A stretch of DNA of 64,000 nucleotides, from positions 3,597,501 to 3,661,500 of the forward strand of contig NZ_JALJWP010000001.1 of the NCBI RefSeq assembly GCF_024169245.1, read 5' to 3'. The stretch comes from Pseudomonas koreensis (GTDB lineage: Bacteria; Pseudomonadota; Gammaproteobacteria; Pseudomonadales; Pseudomonadaceae). This document shows positions 13,996-16,737 of this stretch, piece after piece. Position numbers and translations under genes: made by a program. The notes below the pieces were generated by a model. It saw only the letters and a program-made list of their open reading frames with translations. It ran no database searches and was not told the DNA's origin. Each line of letters opens with the position of its first letter. Positions within the stretch are counted from its first letter, which is position 1.

Positions 13996-14230
13996 AGGAT
14001 TTATCGCAATCTCGCGCACACACCGACGATCCACTGTGGGAGCGAGCCTGCTCGCGAAGGCTTTTTTTGGGGCGGTGGGGTATTTTTTGAGTGAGTACAT
14101 ATCCGTTGCTGCGGTAACGGCTGCTTAGGGTTCCGCCCTTACGGCGGGTCACCTTTTTCAAACGCCAAAAAGGTAACCCAAAAGGCTTGCTCCTACGTTC
14201 GGCCCTCGCAGGCTCGGGTTCCTTCGCTGC

Positions 14231-14334
14231 GGGATCGATCCGGGCGCAGCGTCTCCGGTTTGCTTCGCTGCACCTCCTCTCGCTGTGTACGACTGCGTCG
14301 TACGGTCGCTGCGCTCCCACGCCCGGATCAATCC
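14231..14334. ncRNA. Predicted structured core, copy 1 (strand unknown)
   Basis: The arms GGGATCGATCCGGGCG (14231-14246) and CGCCCGGATCAATCCC (about 14319-14334) pair with one mismatch. Inside, GCGCAGCG pairs with CGCTGCGC. At the tip, GTACGAC (14287-14293) pairs with GTCGTAC (14297-14303). Copies 2 and 3 replace the tip by GTCTGGC / GCCAGAC, keeping all pairs. This is direct evidence that pairing is kept, either in RNA or as extruded DNA. Transcription is not shown. Confidence 0.5.
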
Positions 14335-14447
14335 CTCCGCTCAGCCTTCCGACGTCGCCGGTGGATCAAGATCAAAAGCAGGCGAGCTGACACTCGGCCT
14401 AGAGGTGGACGCGGAGACTGTAGGAGCTGCCGAAGGCTGCGATCTTT

Positions 14448-14479
14448 TGCTCTTGCTCTTGCTCTTGCTCTTGCTCTTG
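14448..14479. repeat. (TTGCTC)n hexamer run, copy 1
   Basis: About five TTGCTC units follow GCTGCGATCTTTTGCTC. The matching site in copy 2 (about 15031-15066) is degenerate (TGATCATGCTTTTGC) with fewer perfect units, and copy 3 (about 15617-15651) again has about five. It replaces the right arm of the GATCTTTTGATC palindrome seen elsewhere. Confidence 0.8.
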
Positions 14480-15792
14480 TAGGAGTGAGTCTGCTCGCGA
14501 TAGCTATATCAAAGATACGAATGAATAGCGGATCTACCCTGATCCCTCTGGGAGCTGGCTTGCCAGCGATGGCGGCCTGATAGCCGACCAGTCTCTGGCG
14601 CATATATACCCGGTCCCGACTGTGAGCGAGCCTGCTGGCGAAGGCTTTTTTTGGGGCGGTGGGGTATTTTTTGAGTGAGTACATATCCGTTGCTGCGGTA
14701 ACGGCTGCTTAGGGTTCCGCCCTTACGGCGGGTCACCTTTTCCAAACGCCGAAAAGGTAACCCAAAAGGCTTGCTCCTACGTTCGGCCCTCGCAGGCTCG
14801 GGTTCCTTCGCTGCGGGATCGATCCGGGCGCAGCGCCTCCGGTTTGCTTCGCTGCACCTCCTTCCGCTGTGTCTGGCTGCGCCAGACGGTCGCTGCGCTC
14901 CCACGCCCGGATCAATCCCTCCGCTCAGCCTTCCGACGTCGCCGGTGGATCAAGATCAAAAGCCGCAGGCGAGCTGACACTCGGCCTAGAGGTGGACGCG
15001 GAGACTGTAGGAGCTGCCGAAGGCTGCGATCTTTTGATCATGCTTTTGCTTTTGCTCTTGCTCTTGTAGGAGTGAGCCTGCTCGCGATAGCTATATCAAA
15101 GATACGAATGAACAGCGGACCTGCCCTGATCCCTGTGGGAACCGGCTTGCCAGCGATGGCGGCCTGATAGCCGACCAGTCTCTGGCGGATATATACCCGG
15201 TCCCGACTGTGAACGAGCCTGCTGGCGAAGGCTTTTTTTGGGGCGGTGGGGTATTTTTTGAGTGAGTACATATCCATTGCTGCGGTAACGGCTGCTTAGG
15301 GTTCCGCCCTTACGGCGGGTCACCTTTTCCAAACGCCGAAAAGGTAACCGAAAAGGCTTGCTCCGACGTTCGGCCCCTCGCGGGCTCGGGGTTCCTTCGC
15401 TGCGGGATCGATCCGGGCGCAGCGGCTCCGGTTTGCTTCGCTGCACCTCCTTCCGCTGTGTCTGGCTGCGCCAGACGGTCGCTGCGCTCCCACGCCCGGA
15501 TCAATCCCTTCAGTCAGCCTTCCGACGTCGCTGGTGGATCAAGATCAAAAGCAGGCGAGCTGACACTCGGCCTAGAGGTGGACGCGGAAACTGCAGGAGC
15601 TGCCGAAGGCTGCGATCTTTTGCTCTTGCTCTTGCTCTTGCTCTTGCTCTTGTAGGAGTGAGCCTGCTCGCGATAGCTATCTCAAGGATACGAATGAATG
15701 GCGGATCTACCCTGATTCCTCTGGGAACCGGCTTGCCAGCGATGGCGGCCTGATAGCCGACCAGTCTCTGGCGGATATATACCCAATGCCAA

Positions 15793-15884
15793 CTGTGGGA
15801 GCGAGCCTGCTCGCGATAGCGGTGGGTCGGTCACTATTGAATTGACTGACCCACCGCTATCGCGAGCAGGCTCATTCCTACAGG
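15793..15884. repeat. REPIN at the end of the tandem array
   Basis: GTGGGAGCGAGCCTGCTCGCGATAG pairs with CTATCGCGAGCAGGCTCATTCCTAC around a short spacer. Its left half replaces the REP half-site that begins a new unit in the array, so the array stops by turning into a normal REPIN. Confidence 0.85.
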
Positions 15885-15905: not shown

Positions 15906-16737
15906 TCACCCGCGAATAAACGCCAACAAATCCGCATTGATCGTCTCCGCCTGCGTCGTCGGCATGCCATGCGGAAACCCCGGATACGATTTCAGCGTGC
16001 CATTGGGCAACAGTTTCGCCGACAACGGTCCGGAGTTGGCGTACGGCACAATCTGGTCGTCCTCGCCATGCATCACCAGCACCGGCACGCTGACTTTTTT
16101 CAGATCTTCGGTGAAGTCAGTCTGCGAAAACGCGACGATGCCGTCGTAGTGCGCCTTGGCGCCGCCGATCATGCCTTGCCGCCACCAGTTGGCGATGATC
16201 CCTTCCGACGCCTCGGCGCCAGGACGGTTGTAGCCGTAGAAAGGTCCGCTCGGCACATCGCGATAAAACTGCGCCCGGTTCGCTGCCAATTGCGCCTGAA
16301 AGCCATCGAACACCGATTTCGGCAAACCGCCCCGGGTTGCTTTCGGTCTGCACCATCAACGGTGGCACCGCACTGATCAAGACCGCTTTGCTGACCTTGT
16401 CCTGACCATGCCGGGCAATGTAATGGATGACCTCGCCGCCGCCGGTGGAATGGCCGACGTGGACAACGTTGCTCGTACCCAGATGATTGACCACGGCCAG
16501 CACATCGTCGGCGTAGTGGTCCATGTCGTGGCCGTCCCAGACCTGGCTTGAGCGCCCGTGCCCGCGCCGATCATGGGCAATCACCCGAAAGCCCTGCGCG
16601 AGAAAAAACAGCATCTGCGCGTCCCAGTCATCCGAACTGAGCGGCCAGCCGTGGTGGAAATGGATCACCGGAGCGTCGCGCGGGCCCCAGTCCTTGTAGA
16701 AGATGTCGACGCCGTCTCGAGTGGTGACAAAACCCAT
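15906..16737 (-). pseudogene. Alpha/beta hydrolase (non-heme chloroperoxidase/arylesterase type), frameshifted
   Basis: The N-terminal part is read from 16737 down to about 16335 in one frame: [19 protein letters not shown], the oxyanion HGWP, then the nucleophile elbow GHSTGG. The rest ([13 protein letters not shown] to the catalytic His in GFPHGMP) is in the next frame and ends at 15906. The two parts join at a run of four C (16330-16333 on the plus strand). Removing one C restores NPGGLPKSV and a 276-aa protein, the usual family length, so an extra base has been gained. A homopolymer sequencing error or a true recent mutation would look the same. If intact, it would be a cytoplasmic serine hydrolase of unknown substrate. 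Confidence 0.85.

Follow-up and report, generated by a model that had tools for sequence, protein, structure and literature searches.

A hairpin-rich intergenic repeat of Pseudomonas largely oriented with the replication fork, and its tandem array in Pseudomonas koreensis

The window analysed here, a stretch of 64,000 nucleotides of Pseudomonas koreensis (contig NZ_JALJWP010000001.1, positions 3,597,501 to 3,661,500), contains a gap between genes that is filled by three near-identical tandem units. A preliminary description had seen in each unit the same series of hairpins, a hexamer run and REP half-sites at the ends, and had suggested that the unit of about 585 bp could be either a non-autonomous mobile element using REP half-sites or a member of an RNA gene family. 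This locus raises the question of which part of the unit is an element in its own right, whether it moves, and whether it acts as DNA or as RNA.

The tandem array and the repeat it contains

The three units (584, 587 and about 588 bp), whose starts lie 584 and 587 bp apart as first described, display pairwise identities of 95.2, 94.1 and 95.0%, and the hairpins, the hexamer run and the REP half-sites were all located where they had been reported (Table 1). The gap indeed appears free of genes, since none of the four ORFs tested inside it had a Pfam match and the copies differ by single-base indels, which rules out a coding gene. To the right of the array, a hydrolase-like gene (window positions 15906-16737) spans two overlapping frames (ORFs 15906-16325 and 16117-16737), possibly as the result of a frameshift.

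Table 1. Features of the array, in window coordinates
Feature	Position	Strand	Remarks
Tandem unit 1	14034..14617	+	REP half-site, core and short repeats
Tandem unit 2	14618..15204	+	
Tandem unit 3	15205..15792	+	right end approximate
Core copy 1	14089..14413	+	strand running with the replication fork; BLAST, alignments
Core copy 2	14673..15000	+	BLAST; genome 3612173-3612500
Core copy 3	15260..15586	+	BLAST; genome 3612760-3613086
Cloverleaf domain, copy 1	14219..14346	-	16-bp stem, three hairpins
Cloverleaf domain, copy 2	14803..14930	-	motif position
Cloverleaf domain, copy 3	15392..15519	-	motif position
Short hairpin repeat GTAGGAGCTGCCGAAGGCTGCGATC	14420..14444, 15007-15031, 15593-15617	+	
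TTGCTC hexamer run	14447..14476, 15046-15063, 15620-15649	+	TTGCTC/TTGCTT
REP-type palindrome	14478..14504, 15065-15091, 15651-15677	+	
REP/REPIN-type segment	14550..14600, 15723-15773	+	unit 2 copy starts near 15133
REPIN-like inverted pair closing the array	15793..15883	.	41-nt arms, 90% complementary

The length of 585 bp is the tandem period and not, as had been supposed, that of the element. When unit 1 was compared by BLAST with the window's own complete genome (G000, 5.97 Mb), the 134 matches were of two sorts: 40 were taken to be copies of a central block no longer than 325 bp, hereafter the core, mostly single and scattered, and many others were short matches to the REP-like and GTAGGAGCTGCCGAAGGC parts of the unit. 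The unit is a composite of the 325-bp core with REP-type palindromes, a further hairpin repeat and the TTGCTC run, since the core alone recurs as a block genome-wide, the remainder being a mosaic of shorter repeats; the hairpin repeat GTAGGAGCTGCCGAAGGCTGCGATC is also present elsewhere in the genome without the core. In two further tandem arrays of the same genome the periods are 439 and 444, which would fit a difference in the repeats that separate the cores. The tandem array probably arose later, via recombination between flanking REP-type repeats. No orthologous site of the window locus was recovered, its two left genes lying apart in the relatives matched.

A BLAST search in which 12 candidates were scored in each genome detected the core in 46 of 59 Pseudomonas genomes, the window's own included. 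A pattern scan of named genomes gave at least 120 stretches, and all 80 of those bearing a title belong to Pseudomonas (P. fluorescens, P. mandelii, P. koreensis, P. brassicacearum, P. chlororaphis and P. viridiflava among them); the centre of the core was found in none of 273 other gammaproteobacterial genomes with a covariance model under strict filters. A covariance model also gave eight copies, at 62-74 bits, in the genome G015, very different in sequence and with, by eye, the same order of several hairpins. A phage element was ruled out by the absence of any phage match at blastn sensitivity, and a plasmid element by megablast, which gave one partial match, an 85-base core piece of 88.5% identity on a Pseudomonas antarctica plasmid (NZ_CP015601.1:56786-56872).

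From 182 distinct near-full copies, 88 representatives were drawn, with a mean length of 325 bp and a G+C content of 60.5%. In alignments, the core forms one block whose flanks differ between copies, and hairpin alleles are swapped among copies. By eye, neither a terminal repeat nor a clean target duplication, of the kind that marks a MITE, was made out in single copies, the ends not being resolved at the empty site considered below, and the core is not REP-ended, though REPs adjoin many copies.

Single copies at different places and an empty site, both anticipated for a mobile element, were found. At one locus, the element lies behind the same gene in three of 19 genomes (G000, G011 and G016), and comparison of the occupied site of G016 with G005, in which the terminator and the downstream sequence are only some 30 bp apart, shows that the core is present or absent at one orthologous site. 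The first proposal thus stands as regards an apparently mobile, structured element with independent copies, but finds no support as regards movement by REP half-sites: besides the appearance of the core's ends, G015 holds its eight copies with no hit for a Y1 transposase.

The core lies between genes, in most cases behind the stop codon of a same-strand gene. Among 189 distinct copies with a neighbour called by a rough ORF caller (12 copies without a call and nine following another copy stand outside this number), the upstream gene is on the same strand in 133 and on the opposite strand in 56; some of the latter calls are errors, as the caller missed the same-strand GFA gene at the window locus. 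The distance from the stop codon to the element, for same-strand genes, has a median of 71 nt and is 40-120 nt in 85 of the 133. Several copies were seen by eye directly behind terminator-like hairpins.

Some copies are interrupted. Seven cores of G035 (L098-L103 and L108) are split at the same internal site, with a 4-bp overlap, by an insertion sequence homing into the core repeat; it carries a 402-codon frame, IS481-like by Pfam (rve, LZ_Tnp_IS481) in L103, the one tested. Two cores of G019 (L104 and L105) are interrupted at reference positions 66-74 by an insert of about 1.6 kb that contains a 372-codon rve transposase frame. Three other cores (L106, L107 and L109) terminate next to IS-like frames. 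An autonomous version of the core with a gene inside it was ruled out, the interrupted copies of G035 and G019 holding IS-type transposase frames. The tandem core at L284 (G045:5157800-5161600) is disrupted at reference position 65-66 by an insert of about 1.8 kb with a reverse-transcriptase frame that has one internal stop; this insert is probably a group II intron, situated immediately after the first hairpin of the core. At L061 (G000:3946000-3951000), REP units lie behind the core, seven of which are spaced 206 bp apart, resembling the polar tandem REP arrays described for strain SBW25 in the available part of PMC3116915.

Fold of the core and the strand that keeps it

Folding of the centre of unit 1 and of the core is beyond chance (minus strand, z = -5.7 for the centre as RNA and -2.9 for the whole core as DNA). 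For the 88 representatives, the consensus energy is -58.7 for the minus strand and -43.6 for the plus strand; when the plus-strand columns were shuffled ten times, it was -2 to -11. In the central 128 nt, whose alignment takes 46 of the 88 representatives, these 46 sequences support 41 pairs with 98.8% of cells paired, and cells with changes on both sides number 157, versus 49.8 +/- 6.2 in shuffled alignments (0 of 500 shuffles as high). This central domain has the shape of a cloverleaf, with a long stem enclosing three hairpins.

The imperfect pairs differ sharply between strands. Read on the minus strand, the central domain has 70 G-U (G-T) cells versus three A-C cells, and 16 pair positions lean to G-T and two to A-C; for the whole element, the minus-strand structure has 139 G-U versus two A-C cells and the plus-strand structure five versus 34, these cells not being independent as the copies are related. 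This asymmetry points to conservation of the minus-strand fold; C-to-T drift on the leading strand would be expected to produce the opposite sign. With DNA parameters, the minus strand is also the more stable in 80 of 88 representatives, at a mean difference of 3.4 of 67.6 kcal/mol, and with RNA parameters in 76 of 88.

Covariation of this kind is compatible with a folded DNA strand as well as with an RNA, and to that extent the first suggestion of an RNA gene family finds support. Transcribed from the minus strand, the element could represent a family of RNA genes or a 3'-region element whose cloverleaf would act as RNA, for instance as an insulator or antisense RNA behind leading-strand genes, in line with the strong covariation and the strand-specific wobble asymmetry (70 G-U versus three A-C cells). 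However, G-T pairs are also tolerated in DNA, Rfam 15 gave no match at gathering thresholds, and tens of copies, swapped hairpin alleles and presence or absence at a site look like a mobile repeat, so that we regard an RNA function as unlikely. A known RNA family was ruled out, two weak Rfam matches sitting in the REPIN at 15802-15874, far below threshold. A promoter scan gave no sigma-70-like site, which weighs little because 0.5 were expected by chance.

Orientation relative to replication and how it may be set

Orientation was determined with the position of dnaA as origin mark, for the 40 core rows of G000 (shorter, fragmented matches, such as those near 2441400 and 2994376, were left out) and, in the other genomes, for the matches listed with E of about 2e-47 or better. 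Solitary copies run with the fork in 30 cases and against it in none in G000 and, among the matches listed, in 11/0 in G005, 21/0 in G019, 23/0 in G035, 6/0 in G045 and 9/0 in G048. In these six complete genomes, all 100 copies counted as solitary, or 93 loci once tandem neighbours are merged, are thus oriented with the fork. Together with the diverged G015 (8/0), this makes 108 of 108 counted solitary copies in seven genomes, with the reservation that three G035 copies and one G005 copy have a weaker opposite partner below the E cut, and that the genomes are not independent, as copies may be orthologous across them.

G029 is the one genome among the eight counted in which orientation does not follow replication, with one copy with the fork and 13 against it by dnaA position among the matches listed. 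In this genome, a second DnaA-domain gene, presumably hda, lies 0.22 Mb from dnaA and head-on, versus 1.4-2.1 Mb and co-directional in ten other genomes, and the sampled GC skew is negative in eight of 11 samples on the side expected positive and positive in five of nine on the side expected negative. A possible moved or misassembled origin block (G029:C1 around 5.4-5.9 Mb) would explain the reversal. Short relatives that keep only the left part are mixed, with 11 solitary ones with the fork and seven against it (one in G010 and two each in G045, G017 and G048) by our reading of the matches listed; the weaker listed matches also include two opposite-strand pairs.

Gene direction alone does not explain the polarity, since five solitary G000 copies (L019, L028, L063, L074 and L077) are fork-oriented although the gene called upstream is on the opposite strand. 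Known motifs were ruled out as its cause: KOPS, DnaA-box and matS were each found in 0 of 88 representatives and Chi in one. A dif pattern search gave no match. The octamer GCTGGCGG is present on the plus strand in 25 of 88 representatives and on the minus strand in none.

Copies facing the other way occur as partners in convergent pairs, which have long inverted arms. The fetched loci contain 47 convergent pairs distinct by sequence (53 entries) and no divergent pair within 4 kb. The arm retaining the right end is fork-oriented in all 17 pairs counted, as judged by the right-end hairpin in 11 (G000, G035 and G048) and by match extent in the six of G019. At L068, L070 and other loci, pairs of about 0.8 kb consist of an arm with the right end, REPs and an arm without it, and the pairs at two loci share near-identical middles; these pairs look like a second, larger mobile unit containing the core. 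Three clear cases of a sizeable ORF at a pair centre (L099, L112 and L163) look by eye like transposases.

We propose, with a probability of roughly four in ten, that the core is a non-autonomous mobile repeat that inserts in connection with discontinuous-strand replication and that is present here in a tandem array of three composite units. Copies would spread by inserting in step with discontinuous-strand synthesis at the fork, the moving form being a folded single strand recognised by machinery encoded elsewhere, and fork direction would then fix orientation at insertion rather than by later loss. In the observed orientation, the folding minus strand corresponds to the nascent lagging strand, that is, to the leading-strand template, and a folded single-stranded copy annealing into lagging-strand gaps would yield the observed polarity. 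A fork-fixed orientation is, in the accessible part of PMC5371812, a mark of elements using discontinuous-strand replication. Several points argue against this reading: no mobilising enzyme was found (G015 gave no Y1 hit and three of eight copy-bearing genomes no reverse-transcriptase hit), the better-folding strand is opposite to the acting strand of IS200/IS605, G029 is reversed by its dnaA position, the short left-part relatives are mixed and no clean ends were made out for single copies.

Orientation might instead be set by loss, insertion occurring both ways and fork-facing copies being deleted or selected against, whether because the better-folding strand would lie single-stranded in the lagging template or because head-on reading is harmful. 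Orientation-dependent deletion of hairpins is known in E. coli, and the more stable minus strand (80/88 and 76/88 representatives) is indeed the one kept out of the lagging template. Nevertheless, a difference of 3.4 of 67.6 kcal/mol is small and sits badly with 108 of 108, and the opposite orientation is tolerated by the arm of convergent pairs that lacks the right end (all 17 counted); we find selective loss somewhat doubtful.

Counted copies keep clear of dnaA: in the six fully agreeing genomes the smallest distance is 0.16-0.32 of the half-chromosome, and none is nearer than 0.24 in G000, G019 and G035. REPs are said to be likewise scarce near the origin in the part of PMC3390384 at hand, and tandem REP arrays of SBW25 are also polar (PMC3116915, in part). 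These parallels, together with the REPs that flank many copies and link the tandem units, would suit a passive mosaic, namely a degenerate REP/BIME-type array spread solely by recombination and gene conversion between REPs, the orientation of which would go back to a few old copies and be maintained by symmetric inversions. Such a history is very unlikely in view of the recurrence of the core as one block with differing flanks and of site occupancy that differs between relatives.

The core could even represent a new class of replication-coupled, non-autonomous element, a cloverleaf folded on the strand equivalent to the nascent lagging strand and spreading via lagging-strand gaps behind terminators, hence fork-oriented, its carriers sharing no Y1 or reverse transcriptase; we consider this reading rather doubtful. 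The 108/108 polarity and the one-strand fold turn a vague class, the large intergenic repeats of Pseudomonas, into a testable one, since the place of action of single-stranded DNA or RNA can be predicted from orientation, strand and site. Polarity would also account for the expected products of recombination between such repeats, namely duplications when both lie in one replichore and inversions that preserve fork orientation when they lie in different ones. It further provides an easy internal compass with which assemblies can be checked, G029 being a candidate case.

Relation to known repeats and replication-coupled elements

The preliminary description had stated that a match to a named element would refute its reading, and this probably applies in part. 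Silby et al. (2009, PMC2718517), as far as the accessible text goes, list among the intergenic repeat families of P. fluorescens R200, with 320 bp, 60.25% G+C and 47 copies in SBW25, and R26, with 352 bp and 60.76% G+C. The core, with 325 bp, 60.5% G+C and about 40 copies in G000, falls within the same range of length (about 320-352 bp) and G+C (about 60%), and is likewise intergenic and, in the P. fluorescens group, present in tens of copies in each genome. As its length and G+C equal those of R200 and nearly those of R26, the core is probably an R200/R26 repeat, an assignment by size, G+C and copy number. While the family itself is thus probably known, the fold model and the fork orientation appear to be new here: the available part of PMC2718517 gives no replication orientation, fold model or IS guests for R200, and neither a literature search nor the parts seen of PMC2718517, PMC3116915, PMC3390384, PMC2817692, PMC6006769 and PMC7661048 gave a report of the core's fold or orientation. 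The nearest published precedent for its polarity, within this material, is that of the SBW25 tandem REP arrays, five forward near 2 Mb and six reverse near 4 Mb (PMC3116915).

Like REPINs and BIMEs with RAYT (Y1) transposases, as portrayed in the sections available (PMC3116915, PMC2817692, PMC6006769), the core is intergenic, hairpin-rich and found in Pseudomonas, often adjoining or mixed with them. Unlike REPINs, in which two short inverted REP palindromes make up the whole element, it is a 325-nt, cloverleaf-bearing sequence. Presence of the core shows no clear correlation with Y1 or reverse-transcriptase genes: a Y1 hit was obtained in seven of eight copy-bearing genomes, G015 having none, and also in four of six genomes with no, weak or partial core matches; PF00078, which would be needed for spread driven by a group II intron or reverse transcriptase, gave no hit in G000, G048 and G029. 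With Rfam structured RNAs, the core shares a multi-helix fold supported by strong covariation, and wobble pairs.

In IS200/IS605 and Tn7-TnsE, orientation is fixed by replication direction, and the transposed strand of IS200/IS605 acts in the lagging-strand template (PMC5371812, from the part available). Orientation of the core likewise follows replication, with the exceptions of G029 and the short left-part relatives, but unlike these elements it has no gene of its own, and the wobble asymmetry places its fold on the other strand. Since the fold-keeping strand is the nascent lagging strand and not, as in IS608, the lagging-strand template, filing the core under IS200/IS605 is unwarranted; it may nevertheless work by a coupling to replication similar to theirs.
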